NCBI GenBank assembly: GCA_030692515.1
Contig: JAUXZS010000029.1
Span: 1-64,000 of the forward strand
Reading direction: 5' to 3'
DNA length: 64,000 bases
Source of the DNA: Bacteroidota bacterium
GTDB lineage: Bacteria > Bacteroidota > Bacteroidia > B-17B0 > Aurantibacillaceae
The position numbers and the translations under genes were made by a program. Positions 44,774 to 51,091 of this stretch are shown in pieces (the first letter of the stretch is position 1; every line of letters starts with the position of its first letter). The notes under the pieces were generated by a model. It ran no database searches. It was not told the origin of the DNA and saw only the letters and a program-made list of their open reading frames with translations.

Positions 44774-45433
44774 TTATTTTGTTCTATTATCTAATTCATC
44801 AGAAATTCTCTTCAAAGTATCTAACATAGATCCTATATAGAATTCATTAATAATCTTCACAACCTCTATATTAGAATAGGTTTTTGCATCTTGATTTTGG
44901 TAATTGGAAATTAAAGACTCTTTATTATTTTGCATTGTTTCACTCAATACATCTAACAATCGCCCTTTAACTCTACCCTCGGTCTCACTTGCAATTTTTA
45001 CTTGTATCTTATTAATAAGTTGTATAGTTAATTTTAGAACCTCATTCGATAATTCTCTTACAGAAAGCTTCAAATGTTCCTCTTCAGTAAGGCTATTTTC
45101 AGATTCAAAAAAACTTAGTACAAAATTCTTTTTTTCTTTAATAAATGAGAAACATTGTTCATAGTTCGTTGCTAGATCATTGTGCATAAACTGATTTCGA
45201 ATCTCCATAAAAGTGAAGAACTTCTTTTTCGCATCCTTGTCTAATGCTCCAATGTCAATTAATAAATGAATTTTTTGACTGAAGGACAATGCACTCCCTT
45301 TATTGCCAAATGAGAAGGTTAATGAGTAATCTTCTTCTATACCAATTAATTTTGACAAAAAACGCGAGGTCATATTCTCTAATTTAAGCGATACTAAAAG
45401 CACATCAGCTCTGATTTCCATTTGAGTGTCCAT
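44774..45433 (-). CDS. MltR/HEPN-like helical protein
   Basis: The all-helical 219-residue protein has FSQKIHLLIDIGALDKDAKKKFF followed by EIRNQFMHND (in pieces). This resembles the MltR/DUF4145 core. RNQFMH also fits the R-x4-6-H motif of HEPN domains, with the Asn after Arg that is common in RNase-type HEPN proteins. The rest is predicted coiled helix. HEPN proteins often act as RNases in toxin or defence systems, but MltR-type proteins are not proven nucleases. It stands alone in the accessory zone. Confidence 0.5.
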   Translation of the reverse strand: MDTQMEIRADVLLVSLKLENMTSRFLSKLIGIEEDYSLTFSFGNKGSALSFSQKIHLLIDIGALDKDAKKKFFTFMEIRNQFMHNDLATNYEQCFSFIKEKKNFVLSFFESENSLTEEEHLKLSVRELSNEVLKLTIQLINKIQVKIASETEGRVKGRLLDVLSETMQNNKESLISNYQNQDAKTYSNIEVVKIINEFYIGSMLDTLKRISDELDNRTK

Positions 45434-45638
45434 ATTTAGTTACATTGCATTGTTTAAATTAAAGATACACCTTTCTGCTTTCAATCCAAATTTTACTGAC
45501 TCCTCCTGTACCAAGTTGTTTTTGCGACAAAAAAAATGTACATTTAATACGCCATTTTGTATTATAAACTAGTAGTATAAACACAAAATGAAAAAAAGTT
45601 GAAATTAAATAACATTAATTAAAAATAACATCCAAATA

Positions 45639-46010
45639 ATGAGTGCACTCATAGAGTTAGAAGATTACGAAGTTCTTTCAACCGGGACAATAATAGGAGT
45701 AGCAAACAAATTAATAATTTTCAAACTAAAGGATTTAACTTTTGAGTTTGAATTTAAAAACAATCCTGAGTTTACCGAACATAGAATTAACTCTTTTGTT
45801 CCTAAGGATGGAAAAAAAATGAAACTTATTTTTGATAATTTCAACAATAGCCTTGGAATTGGAAATTTAGAACCTCTTGAAGTTGGATATATCGGAACCC
45901 AAAAATTATATCTAAATTATCGAGTTTATTCTCTTGCTGACAATACAGGTAAATTAGTACATTACACTTGGCTTTTATCCAAATCGAAAGGAGTGAGAAA
46001 TGTCAAATAA
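45639..46010 (+). CDS. Small unknown protein, DUF6864-like
   Basis: The 123-residue protein is mostly beta-strand: YEVLSTGTIIGVANKLIIFKL, FEFEFKNNPE, FDNFNNSLGIGNLEPLEVG and KLYLNYRVYSL (in pieces). I recall this pattern from proteins labelled DUF6864, with no known function; I could not verify it. It overlaps the next gene by 11 bases, so the two are very probably one translational unit. Confidence 0.6.
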   Translation: MSALIELEDYEVLSTGTIIGVANKLIIFKLKDLTFEFEFKNNPEFTEHRINSFVPKDGKKMKLIFDNFNNSLGIGNLEPLEVGYIGTQKLYLNYRVYSLADNTGKLVHYTWLLSKSKGVRNVK

Positions 46011-46437
46011 AGTAACAAATCCAAAATTTGAAGCTTCAGATATATATGAAGGAGGAGACATAACTCAAATCAAAGCCGATGAGTTAAAAGGCAATATTGT
46101 TGCAATTCGCCAATTAATTAATTCCCATAATTTGGCTGCGACTGAGAGCAAGAAAAAAGATTCAGAAATCCAAAAGTTAACCGCTGAGAATGAATATTTA
46201 AACACCGCACCTTACGTTTCAATTATTGCTGCAATTATAAATTTAGTCGGTTCATTAATAATTGGTTTAGCCTCAGAAATGGCAGGTAACGAGTTACAGA
46301 GTTCAGAAGGCGATATTTCAAGAAAAAGTATTTTGTTACTTTCTACTGGCGTAGTACTTATTTTGTTAGGATCATTAGCAACAATCTTTTACCCGAAGGC
46401 TAGAAGTTGGTATAATAAAGATAAAAAAACAATCTAA
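46000..46437 (+). CDS. Small two-helix membrane protein
   Basis: After a polar ~60-residue start with a short coiled coil (ESKKKDSEIQKLTAENEYL), two membrane helices follow (YVSIIAAIINLVGSLIIGL and KSILLLSTGVVLILLGSLATIFY). A basic tail (PKARSWYNKDKK) ends the protein. Start overlap with the previous gene indicates coupled translation, so this may be the membrane anchor or effector of a two-protein unit. I do not recognise the family. Confidence 0.6.
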   Translation: MSNKVTNPKFEASDIYEGGDITQIKADELKGNIVAIRQLINSHNLAATESKKKDSEIQKLTAENEYLNTAPYVSIIAAIINLVGSLIIGLASEMAGNELQSSEGDISRKSILLLSTGVVLILLGSLATIFYPKARSWYNKDKKTI

Positions 46438-46494
46438 ATGAAAACCTTAAGGATGTAATAATTATGATAACTGAAATAAAAATAATTCTTATTG

Positions 46495-47007
46495 ATGAAA
46501 ATAATGTTAAGTCAACTATATAAAAAAAAGTATTTAATTCGCCATAAAATTTTAGAAACTTTATACCAATCTCAATTTAAAGCTTTTGAAAATGTCCCAC
46601 CTACCGAAGGAGTTTTTATTAGTGATTATTCAATAAGCCAGAAAGAAATTTCTGAAAAAACAGGATTTGATGAAAAAGATTTAATTCCTGAAATTGAAAT
46701 CCTTCATGACCGAAAACAAATTTCATTTGAAACAGACGACTACGAAAACTTCTATTTTATCACAAAACAAGGAAGCGTAAACTATCATGATAAATTTTAC
46801 CTTGAAGAGGGAAAAAAGACACTATTAACCATTGTAAAAGACAGCTTAAGTATAATTACAACAATTGGACTTTTCACAATAGCTATTTATACTTTTATTA
46901 CAAATATTTCCCAAACAAGGGACAATACAAAAGATTTAGAATTAATGAAGCGTCACATTGATTCTCTAGAATTTGAGGTAAAAAAAACAAAGTTTGAATT
47001 TAAATAA
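46495..47007 (+). CDS. Unknown protein with winged-helix-like N-terminus and one membrane helix
   Basis: The first ATG is 46495; another at 46504 is also possible. Residues ~10-85 look like a winged helix (KKYLIRHKILETLY, SISQKEISEKTGFDEKDLIPEIEILHDRKQI, in pieces). A stem, one membrane helix (SIITTIGLFTIAIYTFI) and a short coiled coil at the C-terminus follow. A DNA-binding-like domain tied to the membrane is uncommon. The gene is 57 bases after the two-helix protein and may belong to the same unit. The function is unknown. Confidence 0.5.
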   Translation: MKIMLSQLYKKKYLIRHKILETLYQSQFKAFENVPPTEGVFISDYSISQKEISEKTGFDEKDLIPEIEILHDRKQISFETDDYENFYFITKQGSVNYHDKFYLEEGKKTLLTIVKDSLSIITTIGLFTIAIYTFITNISQTRDNTKDLELMKRHIDSLEFEVKKTKFEFK

Positions 47008-47375
47008 TTATAATGTTAAATCAATAAGGGATAAAAATCAAAATTTAATTGAATTATATGATAATATAGCTTACAGCCCTAAAGTCTAACAAATAATGAC
47101 ACTCATTTATTCTAAGTTTTCAATAATTTAAAAGTAAAAGACTTAGTAGTTGTTTCAATTAAAAAAATATTTATATCATAAGCAAAATTTCGGATAAGTG
47201 CTTTAAACTAAAGCAAAATATCTTTCAAAATAATAAAAAAATAAATGAAACTAAATTTGAAAGCAAAATACAAATCAATTAACATTCTAATTAAGTCGTA
47301 GTAAAAAGCAAAGATTCTTATAATCAAAAATTAGTGATATATGAATTACTAAAAAAAACACTAGAATAAACCACA
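47008..47375. other. Non-coding AT-rich gap before the RelA/SpoT-domain gene
   Basis: This 368-base stretch has no ORF of note, no clear hairpin terminator and no exact TAnnTTTG element. It is more AT-rich than its surroundings and separates the small-protein genes from the alarmone-synthetase-like gene, so the latter probably has its own promoter here. Confidence 0.5.
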
Positions 47376-48695
47376 ATGACAATTTCAAAAGCGGATATTG
47401 ATAGATTAGGGAATCTTATAAGGGTTGAAAGAGATAATATTAGTGATTCCACCCTAAACAGTCTGCAAGAATATAGAACTTCTCACAAAGAAATTCTTTC
47501 ATTGACTTTTAAAATGCTTTGTTTAAATACGCAAAAAATCCACCTTACTTCAATAGTTACATATAGAATTAAAAGATTCCAATCGATTATAGGAAAACTT
47601 CACCGTTATCCTGAAATGAGATTTAATCGTATGTGGGATATTGGAGGATGCAGATGTATATTAAGAAATAATTTTGACGTTTATAAATTAAAGGATTTAA
47701 TTTCCAAGGAAGCCGATTTTGAAATCGTAAAAGAATATGATTACATAGAAAAACCTCAAAAGGATGGTTATAAATCATTGCATCTATTTGTTAAACATAA
47801 ATTATCTGATAAAATTATAGAAGTTCAAGTTAGAAATCAAATTGACCATAATTGGGCAACTCTTGTGGAAATTACTGATGTCCTATATGATTCAAAATTA
47901 AAGGAACATAGCAATAATAAAGATCTTCTTCGGTTTCATTTTTTACTCTCTAAAATTTCAGAACTAAATATTCAAGATAAAAAAGAAATTTCTCAAATTC
48001 TTAAAAAATATAATTATTTCGAAAGATTAAGTGAAGTTTTTTCTAGAAATTACATTAAGGTTAGAAGACAATGGTTTGATATTGAATATAAACATAGTCA
48101 CAAGTTTTTTTTAATTGAAACTTCAAAAGATAATGTTCCCAAAATAGAGTCATATAAAACGTCGAATGAAGCAGAAGATTCTTATTTTAATGTCTACAAA
48201 TCAAGAAAAAATGCAAATGTTGTCTTGACTCATTTACAGAAACCCAGTTATAGTCAAATTAGTATAGCCTACTCTAATTACATTCTTACATTCCATAGTT
48301 TTTTAACTGAGTGCTATGAAATTCTTGAAAGTCTAATTGTTGAATCGCTTGAAAAAAAACAATATATCGAATATTTTAAAATATATAATTTATATAATAG
48401 CTTAGTCTTTAATCATATTAGCAACCTCAAGAGCGATATTCGAGAAATAGGTACATATGCAAACGAAACAAAAAACAAAAAGAATAAAGACAAAAGGAAA
48501 GAAAAAGAGTGGATAGAAGATATCCAAAAAAATGTGGATGAAAGTAATGATAGACGCAAAAAACTAATTGACAAATTTAGAAAAAGCATGCCGACTAGTG
48601 GGTTCGGCAAATTAGCGGTGATATATATTACTATATATATTGATAAAAAAAATCAACGAAAAATTAAGAAAGTATTGGCTTTAAACTCAAACTAA
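47376..48695 (+). CDS. Lone RelA/SpoT-domain (p)ppGpp synthetase-like protein with long C-terminal extension
   Basis: Residues ~60-170 hold the full RelA/SpoT nucleotidyltransferase motif set: R64-x-K66 and K74 in RIKRFQSIIGKL, D88 in DIGGCR, DYIEKPQKDGYKSLH (122-136), E149 in IEVQVRNQ and W160-ATLVE. There is no HD hydrolase domain and no TGS or ACT domain. About 270 further residues, including a Lys/Glu-rich segment (KNKKNKDKRKEKEW), have no family I recognise. Lone synthetases of this kind include housekeeping SAS enzymes, toxic SAS toxins and the CapRel phage-defence proteins. The location in an accessory region favours the last two, but this is inference. Confidence 0.75.
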   Translation: MTISKADIDRLGNLIRVERDNISDSTLNSLQEYRTSHKEILSLTFKMLCLNTQKIHLTSIVTYRIKRFQSIIGKLHRYPEMRFNRMWDIGGCRCILRNNFDVYKLKDLISKEADFEIVKEYDYIEKPQKDGYKSLHLFVKHKLSDKIIEVQVRNQIDHNWATLVEITDVLYDSKLKEHSNNKDLLRFHFLLSKISELNIQDKKEISQILKKYNYFERLSEVFSRNYIKVRRQWFDIEYKHSHKFFLIETSKDNVPKIESYKTSNEAEDSYFNVYKSRKNANVVLTHLQKPSYSQISIAYSNYILTFHSFLTECYEILESLIVESLEKKQYIEYFKIYNLYNSLVFNHISNLKSDIREIGTYANETKNKKNKDKRKEKEWIEDIQKNVDESNDRRKKLIDKFRKSMPTSGFGKLAVIYITIYIDKKNQRKIKKVLALNSN

Positions 48696-48845
48696 GCAAA
48701 AAGATTAATAGTATCATTCATCGTTCATTCCATTTAATAGGTGTTTTTTTCGAAAACATTAAGTTGATTTTATCATAATTTTACTGAATTATTAGTGCCA
48801 AATAATAATTGATTTAAAAATGAGTTCTCCTTTCCAAGAGTCAAA

Positions 48846-48882
48846 ATGCAAAAGTCGTGCTCAAAGAGCAATACTTTTGCAT
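48846..48882. repeat. Structured repeat copy A, internally deleted
   Basis: ATGCAAAAGT (48846-48855) pairs perfectly with ACTTTTGCAT (48873-48882). The 17-base interior contains a small hairpin (TGCTC-AAA-GAGCA). Its flanks match copy C: 48838-48856 and 50590-50608 agree at 18 of 19 bases. It therefore looks like copy C with its ~100-base interior removed. It is followed 6 bases later by a tmRNA 3'-end core. Confidence 0.7.
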
Positions 48883-48888
48883 ATATCT

Positions 48889-48905
48889 GTGGACCCAGAG
48901 AGATT
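48889..48905 (-). repeat. tmRNA 3'-end core, distal copy
   Basis: GTGGACCCAGAGAGATT matches the end of the intact tmRNA (50725-50741) at 16 of 17 bases and then diverges. It is a candidate left attachment remnant for DNA inserted at ssrA. Confidence 0.65.
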
Positions 48906-48938
48906 AACTACGTTGATCTCTTGAGTACCCATCGTCAA

Positions 48939-49061
48939 CATCAAATGAATTCTGCTTGTAGCAGAATATTTTTTATTTTCCTATATCTGTGTGAAAGTGA
49001 ACTTTCACTCTGATTCCGGAAAACAAAAAAGTCCCGCCAAAAGGCGAGACTTCATTTGATG
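48939..49061. repeat. Structured repeat copy B (outer stem with three inner hairpins)
   Basis: The outer stem pairs CATCAAATGA with TCATTTGATG (48939-48948 with 49052-49061). Inside are hairpin 1 (ATTCTGC/GCAGAAT, from 48949), hairpin 2 (GTGAAAGT/ACTTTCAC, from 48991) and hairpin 3 (GTCCCGCC/GGCGAGAC, from 49031, one mismatch). Copy C at 50597-50719 has the same three hairpins with identical start-to-start distances of 42 and 40 bases but different stem sequences. Both share AAAACAAAAAAGTCCCGCC next to hairpin 3. Confidence 0.7.
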
Positions 49062-49068
49062 CATTCTG

Positions 49069-49101
49069 TTCAGCCCACCGACATTTTTTCGAACTCCTTT
49101 C
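49069..49101 (-). repeat. Degenerate tmRNA 3'-end copy
   Basis: The stretch keeps TCAG at its start and TTCGAACTC near its end with the same spacing as the real tmRNA terminus (50722-50754), while the bases between have drifted. Like the other cores it directly follows a structured repeat (copy B). The call rests on short matches. Confidence 0.4.
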
Positions 49102-49270
49102 TTGAAGATCTCAATAAAATAAGTGTGTTAAAGCAATATTTAAGCATTTAGAGTTTCCTCTGAAAAAGAGCGTGTTTTCTCCTGTATAAAAACTATACAT
49201 GAGACACTTGTCAGGTATAAATATTTTAATTATCTTTACATGATAAGAGTATTAGGTAAAAACGCTTTAC

Positions 49271-50377
49271 ATGACAAAAAGTAAAAAAAATATAATTCCG
49301 GATAGTGAAATTGCATTTAATAATCTGCCTTTTTTACCACCTAATAAAGATAAAATTGAAACTGTAAAAGTTTTAAGGCAACTAGTAAAATCTTCAGTTG
49401 CATTGGCAGAATTAAAAGGAATAGTTCACATTTTACCTAATCCGGAAATTTTGCTTAATGCAATTATTTTGAAAGAAGCTAGAGCTAGTTCGGAAATAGA
49501 AAATGTAATAACAACACAAGATAAATTATACCAAGCTCTTTCAGCGAAAGGCATACAAGTTGATACTGCTACAAAGGAAGTTTTGAGATATCGAGAGGCA
49601 ATGCTTTACGGAGTGAATTTTATAAAGACGAAGTCCTTTTTAACAACAAACGCAATTATTGAAATCCAAAAAATACTTGAAGAAAATAATGCAGGAATAA
49701 GAAAATTGCCCGGTACAGCTCTTCGAAATGCATCAACTAGAAAAGTGATTTATACACCTCCTGACAATATTGATGCTATAAATAGGCTATTGAGAAACTA
49801 CGAGCAATACATAAATGAGGAAGATGATATTCCTCACCTAATAAAAATGGCTGTTCAACATTATCAATTTGAAAGCATCCATCCTTTTTATGATGGAAAC
49901 GGGCGTACTGGAAGGATAATAAATATTTTGTGCTTAATTATGGGTGGACTGCTTGAGAACCCTGTGTTATTTTTAAGCGGTTATATAATAGATAACAAAT
50001 CTGATTATTATAAATTGTTACAAGAAGTTAGAACAAAACAAAATTGGGAGGCCTGGATTTTATTTATTTTGAAAGGGATAGAATCAACAGCAAAAGAAAC
50101 CATCGCTCAGGTTGCCAGAATCAGTAAATTGTTTGATCAAACAAAAGGAGTAGTCCAAAAAAAGATTCCTAAAATTTATAATAAAGAATTGATTGAAATT
50201 TTATTTGAGCAGCCCTATTGTAAAAGTGAATATTTAGAAAATCGATTAGGTATTTCCCGAATTACAGCATCAAAATATCTTAAAGAGTTGGAGAAAATTG
50301 AAGTTTTAAAATCGAAAAAGGTTTGGAAAGAAACACTTTATATTAACACAGACCTTTTTAATCTCTTGAAAAAGTAA
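49271..50377 (+). CDS. Fic-family AMPylase with N-terminal inhibitory motif and C-terminal winged helix
   Basis: The Fic motif HPFYDGNGRTGR is complete (residues 204-215). The N-terminal inhibitory motif [S/T]xxxE[G/N] is seen as S73-S-E-I-E77-N78, placing it in the class II, self-inhibited group. The C-terminus (about 315-365) is a winged helix (SEYLENRLGISRITASKYLKELEKI, in pieces). Fic enzymes transfer AMP or other groups to target proteins. The gene lies between repeated tmRNA 3'-end cores (48889 and 50544) and is the only gene in that 1.65-kb unit, so it looks like cargo of an inserted element. No integrase gene is present. Confidence 0.92.
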   Translation: MTKSKKNIIPDSEIAFNNLPFLPPNKDKIETVKVLRQLVKSSVALAELKGIVHILPNPEILLNAIILKEARASSEIENVITTQDKLYQALSAKGIQVDTATKEVLRYREAMLYGVNFIKTKSFLTTNAIIEIQKILEENNAGIRKLPGTALRNASTRKVIYTPPDNIDAINRLLRNYEQYINEEDDIPHLIKMAVQHYQFESIHPFYDGNGRTGRIINILCLIMGGLLENPVLFLSGYIIDNKSDYYKLLQEVRTKQNWEAWILFILKGIESTAKETIAQVARISKLFDQTKGVVQKKIPKIYNKELIEILFEQPYCKSEYLENRLGISRITASKYLKELEKIEVLKSKKVWKETLYINTDLFNLLKK

Positions 50378-50506
50378 GCTAAAAAGTTCGAATCCCTTTG
50401 AGATACTAGGTTAAAAACCTTGTTTTTTAAAAAAGTTCGAACTCTACTTTTAAAAAACATAGTCTCTCGAACAACTAATATTGACAAGGGTTTCAGAGGA
50501 AATAAA

Positions 50507-50541
50507 AAAGGGACAAAACAAAAAAATTAGTTTGTCCCTTT
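50507..50541. terminator. Intrinsic terminator after the Fic gene
   Basis: AAAGGGACAAA (50507-50517) and TTTGTCCCTTT (50531-50541) form a perfect 11-bp stem with a 13-base loop. A tmRNA-end core begins 3 bases later, repeating the pattern of palindrome followed by core seen elsewhere in this region. Confidence 0.65.
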
Positions 50542-50543
50542 GG

Positions 50544-50560
50544 GTGGACCCGGAGAGATT
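50544..50560 (-). repeat. tmRNA 3'-end core, middle copy
   Basis: GTGGACCCGGAGAGATT is identical over 17 bases to the end of the intact tmRNA at 50725-50741 and differs afterwards. With the distal copy it brackets the Fic gene. Confidence 0.75.
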
Positions 50561-50596
50561 ATTGCTACGCAATGAACCCTCCTAACCATGAGTCAA

Positions 50597-50719
50597 AATG
50601 TAAAAGTCATTTTGCTTTGCAAATTGCTTTTTTGTTTTACGCATTCGCTTTTGAAAACAAGTTTTCAACGCTTCTTCGCAAAACAAAAAAGTCCCGCCTT
50701 TCGGCGGGACTTTTACATT
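50597..50719. repeat. Structured repeat copy C, overlapping the tmRNA terminator
   Basis: AATGTAAAAGTC (50597-50608) is the exact reverse complement of GACTTTTACATT (50708-50719). Inner hairpins start at 50609 (ATTTTGC/GCAAATT, 6 of 7 pairs), 50651 (TTGAAAAC/GTTTTCAA) and 50691 (GTCCCGCC/GGCGGGAC). This is the same architecture and spacing as copy B. Hairpin 3 is also the terminator of the tmRNA gene. Confidence 0.72.
50685..50714 (-). terminator. tmRNA terminator
   Basis: GTCCCGCC (50691-50698) and GGCGGGAC (50703-50710) with a 4-base loop form a GC-rich stem. On the minus strand it is followed by a run of T (50690-50685). It lies 12 bases beyond the tmRNA 3' end. Confidence 0.9.
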
Positions 50720-50725
50720 TATCAG

Positions 50726-51091
50726 TGGACCCGGAGAGATTCGAACTCTCGTCCAAATAAGGAATAAATAAGCTTTCTACACGTTTAGTTATAACTTGGT
50801 TGTAGGCGAAGGGCAGGCGTTATATCAAACCAACCCCTAACTTAGCTATTAATATTGTTTTACATAATAGCATTTGTAAAACAAACTACACATTTATGAT
50901 GCTTTACCCAAGGCGCAGAGCAGCTTAGCTCCCTGGAAAGCAAAGGACACTTAATTCTAAATTAAGCAGCCATAGCGTAAGAGTTATCTTCGCCAAATAA
51001 AAGTTTTGAAAGTTAAATTTAAAGAGCCATTCTTACAACGCTCTACATGCTTACATATCTAATGCGCTTACTGTCAAATCCGGTCGGGCCC
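50726..51091 (-). ncRNA. ssrA: tmRNA (transfer-messenger RNA)
   Basis: The 5' end GGGCCCG (51091-51085) pairs with CGGGTCC (50733-50727) as a 7-bp acceptor stem containing one G-U pair. The T-arm (GAGAGTTCGAATCTCTC) lies just inside the 3' end. The tag frame at 50994-50962 on the minus strand reads GEDNSYAMAA and stops with TAA, a typical Bacteroidota tag ending in hydrophobic residues. The terminal CCA is not encoded (CTG follows the discriminator A). tmRNA with SmpB rescues stalled ribosomes and tags the products for proteolysis. Its 3' end is a frequent integration site for mobile DNA, and partial copies lie downstream. Confidence 0.95.

Follow-up and report, generated by a model that had tools for sequence, protein, structure and literature searches.

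The window analysed here, a stretch of 64,000 nucleotides from a Bacteroidota genome, carries an array of structured repeats beside a tmRNA gene, and the features of the array are given below in the order in which they are met from the tmRNA. R1 denotes a covariance model of 17 copies, of which loci in relatives supplied 14; units B and C were part of this set, and the independent support comes from the wider Bacteroidia search, the cross-family loci L101-L128 and the covariation of held-out copies.

50725..51091, minus strand: tmRNA gene ssrA (ARAGORN; Rfam RF00023, 120.8 bits)
50725-50740, minus strand: equivalent of tmRNA nucleotides 59-74, ATCTCTCCGGGTCCAC, within the ssrA gene
50560..50724, minus strand: unit C, about 165 bp (R1, a model that includes it, 128.4 bits, E 7.1e-26; folding z -7.0 on the plus and -8.1 on the minus strand)
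50544..50559, minus strand: 16-nt direct repeat ATCTCTCCGGGTCCAC of the tmRNA 3' end, after unit C
50506..50543, minus strand: hairpin AAAGGGACAAAC..GTTTTGTCCCTTTTTT beyond the repeat of unit C, seen in the sequence
49271..50377, plus strand: gene for a SoFic-type Fic protein, cargo between units C and B (Pfam; PADLOC SoFic, E 1.6e-113)
49071..49151, plus strand: recombinase-tail-like coding end (...DIFSNSFLEDLNKISVLKQYLSI, then stop) with TTCGAA at 49088-49093, from the sequence and by analogy with the LSR C-terminus at locus L168
48905..49067, minus strand: unit B, second full cloverleaf, orphaned from the tmRNA (R1, a model that includes it, 148.8 bits, E 1.6e-30; folding -48 kcal/mol on the plus strand, z -9.7, and -55.2 kcal/mol on the minus strand, z -10.5)
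48889..48904, minus strand: 16-nt tmRNA-end repeat ATCTCTCTGGGTCCAC after unit B, identical to the tmRNA at 15 of 16 positions
about 48822..48888, minus strand: copy A, a decayed unit (folding z -5.4 on the minus strand)

Read on the minus strand from the tmRNA, the array consists of unit C, the 16-nt repeat, a strong hairpin, the Fic gene, the recombinase-tail-like end with GTTCGAA, unit B, the second repeat (15/16) and copy A. An earlier reading of the letters alone (the sequence-only reading) had placed two repeats here, B and C, each with an outer stem around three hairpins, and both copies fold in this way. The copies are real, but their extent of about 120 bp (123) was wrong, since the unit is about 165 bp long with a spacer and a fourth, T-arm-like hairpin. 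The elements were also said to precede tmRNA ends; the adjacency holds, while the elements are naturally read on the minus strand and lie downstream of the tmRNA at 50725-51091. The tmRNA 3'-end cores that were reported are present, but they are the 16-nt repeats at 50544-50559 and 48889-48904 and form part of an insertion signature rather than being neighbours. Copy A was rightly taken as a reduced third copy; it spans about 48822-48888 instead of 48846-48882, and its outer stem encloses hairpin 3 (hp3) directly, hp1 and hp2 being absent. The degenerate core described after B, on the other hand, does not seem to be a tmRNA end and appears instead to belong to a different integrated element, as its right end, where GTTCGAA occupies 49087-49093 in the minus reading. 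Between the Fic gene and unit C (50385-50475) lie several TTCGAA-containing, T-arm-like inverted repeats, which are perhaps remnants of further tRNA-end insertions. The region beside the tmRNA (44774-50377) also holds candidate defence genes, namely the SoFic gene, a gene for a RelA/SpoT-domain protein that matches PDC-S33 (E 1.1e-62), and DUF6864.

The unit is about 150-190 bp long, typically ~165 bp, and is composed, in the direction away from the tmRNA, of an outer stem (10-13 bp), hp1, hp2, hp3, the closing outer strand, a spacer starting with TTGAC, and a fourth hairpin. Hp1 is GC-rich and is followed by TTTTTTGTTTT, and hp2 has a T-rich 5' arm, an A-rich 3' arm and a GAAAG..CTTTC-like apical stem. 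The fourth hairpin has the form GGAGAGAT-C-AGC-GNA-GCT-A-ATCTCTCC; its 3' arm is a copy of the 3' strand of the tmRNA T-arm, and the copy continues through the acceptor to GGGTCCAC, while its 5' arm pairs with nucleotides 59-65 of the adjoining tRNA. Unit C accordingly contains the cloverleaf (outer stem, terminator-like hp1, hp2 and hp3), the spacer TTTTGACTCATGGTTA, and the 5' arm and loop of the terminal hairpin, the 3' arm of which is provided by the repeat at 50544-50559. The unit is a quasi-palindrome, as shown by reverse-strand R1 matches to the same copy. No conserved open reading frame was found in the units, and coding on the reverse strand was rejected, since most units have no open frame.

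The sequence-only reading had proposed searching this genome and other Bacteroidota with a covariance model, and the search gave many matches. In the genome of the window, which was searched by R1 and tRNA flanks only, we found B, C, a third full copy on another contig (C68:471501-471656), and weaker copies at tRNA-Gln and tRNA-Met. R1 matched 32 of the 40 genus genomes (E<=0.01) and, in a Bacteroidia sample, 66 of 295 genomes, or 48 of 155 genera (E<=1e-5); since the unit is quasi-palindromic, the number of matches per genome also counts weaker matches on the reverse strand of a copy already matched. When 84,980 GTDB species genomes were searched with a DNA pattern of the terminal hairpin, which is independent of R1, 19 stretches were obtained, all from Bacteroidota (including Niastella vici, Puia dinghuensis, Longitalea luteola, Chitinophaga oryziterrae and Lutimonas saemankumensis), and nearly all of them contained an R1 match. 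Viral, phage and plasmid sequences gave no match to the motif or the unit, and an origin from a phage, plasmid or virus was rejected on these searches. In Rfam release 15, only tmRNA reached the gathering score in the window, and a relaxed search of B, C and L003 gave weak matches below threshold. Nothing matching was found on tRNA-linked repeats of Bacteroidetes in the open literature, a search that left most subscription journals outside its scope and is weak evidence for that reason. Going by these two sources, the family appears to be previously undescribed, in agreement with the sequence-only reading, which knew of no element with such a layout.

The same reading had taken the compensated stems as a sign of selection on pairing, and very strong covariation on held-out copies supports this. 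Across 59 units from loci outside the R1 build, 56 of 58 pairs were changed on both sides, 89% of cells pair, and the covariation score was 0.614, compared with 0.157 after shuffling and no more than 0.113 with slid partners; the alignment was fitted to R1 and includes one reverse-strand match (L154:9209-9370), and the figures lean towards structure for this reason, but the margin is far beyond the controls. The mean folding z was -6.5 as RNA and -7.6 as DNA. A chance or artefactual origin of B and C is ruled out by their folding z, the R1 scores, the Bacteroidia matches and the held-out covariation. The pairing may be kept at the DNA level as well as the RNA level, and it could also be kept through template-switch correction of palindromes instead of selection.

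Most strong copies share the orientation of a tRNA or tmRNA gene and begin 2-10 nt past its end, and the adjoining genes encode tRNAs for His, Gln, Ser, Arg, Lys, Leu, Phe, Pro, Val, Asp, Cys, Met, Ala and Glu as well as tmRNA. Among the cross-family loci L101-L128, 19 of 28 lie within about 10 nt of a same-strand ARAGORN tRNA or tmRNA, and many of the remaining loci are orphans behind a pseudo T-arm with GTTCGA. The structured repeat family abutting tRNA and tmRNA ends, possibly mobile, that had been anticipated from two copies is thus supported by the matches across the genus and the class. In the cleanest copies (unit C of the window and Puia), the last 16 nt of the tRNA, nucleotides 59-74, are repeated exactly after the unit. 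A 16-nt repeat reaching C74 was seen in unit C, L147, L150 and L006 (tmRNA), in L146, L110 and L117 (tRNA-Ser), and, with one mismatch, in L108 (tRNA-Arg); at the tRNA-Ser of Puia dinghuensis the same 16 nt are followed by a terminator-like hairpin. The repeat is 17 nt long in L153 (tRNA-Asp) and 21 nt in tRNA-Met, and it is longer where another unit follows. A repeat of at least 16 nt is kept in about a third of the units tested, several of these being in tandem arrays, and most units keep 4-10 nt, which we read as decay. Orthologous tRNA genes without a unit bear a plain terminator (tRNA-His in the genome of the window; tRNA-Met and tRNA-Gln in G014). At the window locus, the hairpin at 50506-50543 resembles the tRNA-side hairpin of other integrated elements (e.g. 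L192 and L119), and unit C is placed between the tmRNA and this left hairpin of the island, so that unit C arrived later than the island. A 6.1-kb composite element bounded by units was considered and rejected, since the spacing reflects conserved tRNA-Gln/tRNA-His synteny.

We suggest that the unit is probably a non-autonomous mobile DNA of Bacteroidota that inserts right after C74 of a tRNA or tmRNA gene, with a repeat of nucleotides 59-74 (16 bp) left on its far side. The 16-bp repeat would arise at insertion, either from a staggered cut or from recombination with a carried core, and the T-arm-like terminal hairpin, of which the 5' arm pairs with tRNA nucleotides 59-65, may take part in target recognition or re-create the target. 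The terminator brought by the unit would make the insertion tolerable. Units are seen to stack in tandem, and some have been pushed away from the tRNA. As for the mobilising enzyme, it has probably been lost or works in trans. The argument for mobility comes from footprints compared between species rather than from alleles within one species, and a site-specific integrase carrying a tRNA 3' end would also leave sequence identity that runs from the T-loop to the end of the tRNA; both points count against the insertion reading. A more specific form of the mechanism, which we regard as doubtful, is that base pairing directs the unit to its target: a guide complementary to tRNA nucleotides 59-65 would be formed by the 5' arm of the terminal hairpin (e.g. 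GGAGAGAT, GGGAT), the cloverleaf would be recognised as folded single-stranded DNA, as its GNA triloops and few G-T pairs might indicate, and a recombinase would insert it with the 16-bp duplication. The 3' ends of tRNA and tmRNA genes are classic landing sites of bacterial islands, and tiny structured insertions across a class, with a 16-bp footprint and no known enzyme, point to an undescribed insertion activity in Bacteroidota. The family accounts for messy arrays at tRNA flanks, which R1 allows to be annotated, and the question of recognition can be tested in cultured strains such as Puia dinghuensis.

The structural data bear on a different explanation, in which the unit would serve tRNA genes as an elaborate RNA terminator, perhaps in both directions, or as a 3' trailer; transcription would be the reason for its retention, and recombination, not an insertion enzyme, would have spread it between tRNA genes. 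Hp1 together with the T-rich arm of hp2 resembles an intrinsic terminator for the tRNA, with a GC stem and a T tract on the tRNA strand at 50714-50687 in C and 49053-49028 in B (minus), and hp3 followed by the other arm of hp2 could terminate the opposite strand. In addition, G-T pairs far outnumber A-C mismatches in hp1 (16 vs 1) and at the base of hp2 (20 vs 1), the pattern that selection on tRNA-strand RNA leaves. This does not extend to the outer, hp3 and terminal stems, in which no excess was observed (12 G-T vs 17 A-C), and overall G-T accounts for 4.1% of pairs in units, whereas the tRNA stems at these loci reach 9.2%. In 39 of 59 units a GNA triloop caps the terminal hairpin, and such triloops are very stable in DNA; these values, with small counts and related copies, hint at a role as DNA for part of the structure. 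A terminator also leaves the exact 16-nt repeat, the T-arm-like hairpin and the insertion beside a foreign island unexplained, and a plain hairpin suffices at most tRNAs of the same genome. Hp1 is like an intrinsic terminator in that, on the tRNA strand, T-rich sequence comes after a GC hairpin, but it is one of four arms, and the others are unneeded for termination. We consider it unlikely that termination explains the unit.

We then turn to the enzymes that might move the unit as an inserting DNA. Across the 40 genomes of the genus, none of Y1_Tnp, Cas1, LSR and reverse transcriptase (RVT_1) was positively associated with units, and none is required by unit-rich genomes. For Y1 the p value was 0.25, and G031 and G006 hold many units without a Y1_Tnp match; for LSR (PF07508) it was 1.0, and G001 (a single contig), G060, G022 and G013 carry units without a match. 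Cas1 was present in 3 of 28 unit-bearing and 9 of 12 other genomes, an anti-correlation (p 1e-4, not phylogeny-corrected) that may reflect clade structure. The genome of the window has 13 tyrosine recombinase matches; the association tests covered Y1, Cas1, LSR and reverse transcriptase.

LSR islands do share the landing site of the units. At locus L168, the tail peptide beside one class of orphan units is an LSR C-terminus (PF00239, PF07508, PF13408), and at nine loci (L257-L265) a tRNA gene lies beside a recombinase gene in convergent orientation. At L168 and these nine loci, most LSR C-termini are encoded in the antisense strand of the tRNA (e.g. ...AEKEGFEPPVPYG), and the attachment site overlaps the end of the recombinase gene. 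LSR islands thus insert at the same tRNA 3' ends as the units and displace older ones. By analogy, 49071-49151 in the window may be the right end of an integrated element lying between unit B and the tmRNA, its tail class being one not joined to a full LSR, and unit B would then lie at the far end of a serine-recombinase island carrying the SoFic gene. It might be argued from insertion at tRNA 3' ends, from the nine loci and from orphan units as displaced flanks that the units are attachment-site remnants of these islands, or are moved by LSRs. We regard this as improbable, because there is no association, the four unit-rich genomes named above have no LSR match, and the TTCGAA of LSR right ends is absent from the right ends of units. 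Compared with integrative elements of tyrosine and serine integrases that target tRNA genes, the unit likewise leaves the tRNA whole by a supplied or duplicated 3' end, but it has no integrase or cargo, and one family is found at about fifteen tRNA types.

In geometry, the closest described elements are family 2 casposons, which insert at the 3' ends of archaeal tRNA genes with a direct repeat of 14-15 bp (PMC6614799), but it is very improbable that the unit is a casposon relative or short derivative inserted by a Cas1-type integrase with a long target duplication, since Cas1 is absent from most unit-rich genomes and anti-correlated with units, which had already weakened this idea, there is an offset between the terminal inverted repeats, and the start of the duplicated segment lies inside the T-loop. 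Both have a long direct target repeat at a tRNA 3' end (16 nt, nucleotides 59-74, in the cleanest units); casposons, however, are multi-kb elements with Cas1 and other genes, whereas the unit is about 165 bp long, gene-free and bacterial. We file the inserting unit with the short non-autonomous palindromic mobile repeats. Like REP/ERIC-type repeats and MITEs, it is short, palindromic, non-coding, dispersed and non-autonomous (REPs, PMC3733652), but unlike them it is fixed in orientation and distance to tRNA 3' ends and has a conserved four-way junction and a tRNA-matched hairpin. In contrast to the REP/RAYT system, Y1 transposases do not track the units, and in comparison with MITEs the unit is quasi-palindromic with a 16-bp repeat and no conserved ORF, no autonomous parent having been found. 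Integron attC sites (core GTTRRRY, recognised by IntI), compared by layout only, differ from the four-way junction of the unit.

Finally, we observed that 29 of 75 units have a further partial or full copy behind them. In about 15 of these, the next copy starts within 8 nt of the hp2 apex, compared with about 3 expected for even starts (binomial p 7e-8, with copies within one clade not fully independent). Breakage or polymerase stalling at the hp2 apex would fit these starts. At about 9060-9110 of L152, two tmRNA ends are joined inverted at the T-loop, GTGGACCCGGAGA-GTTCGAAT-CTCTCCGGATCCAC. Other sequences were also seen at tRNA flanks of G031: a structured repeat of another type, TGAAGTAGAAAACCCC..GGGGTTTTTCACTTCA, is found behind tRNA-Phe and tRNA-Met and, in diverged form, behind tRNA-Arg (L222, L224 and L226), and an IS-like sequence, GGATCAGGCGCAAAAGTTGTGGGGAAG, lies just past several tRNA terminators (L223, L225 and L227), two of these copies having the ORF start MDPSYNDFLKIVLP.
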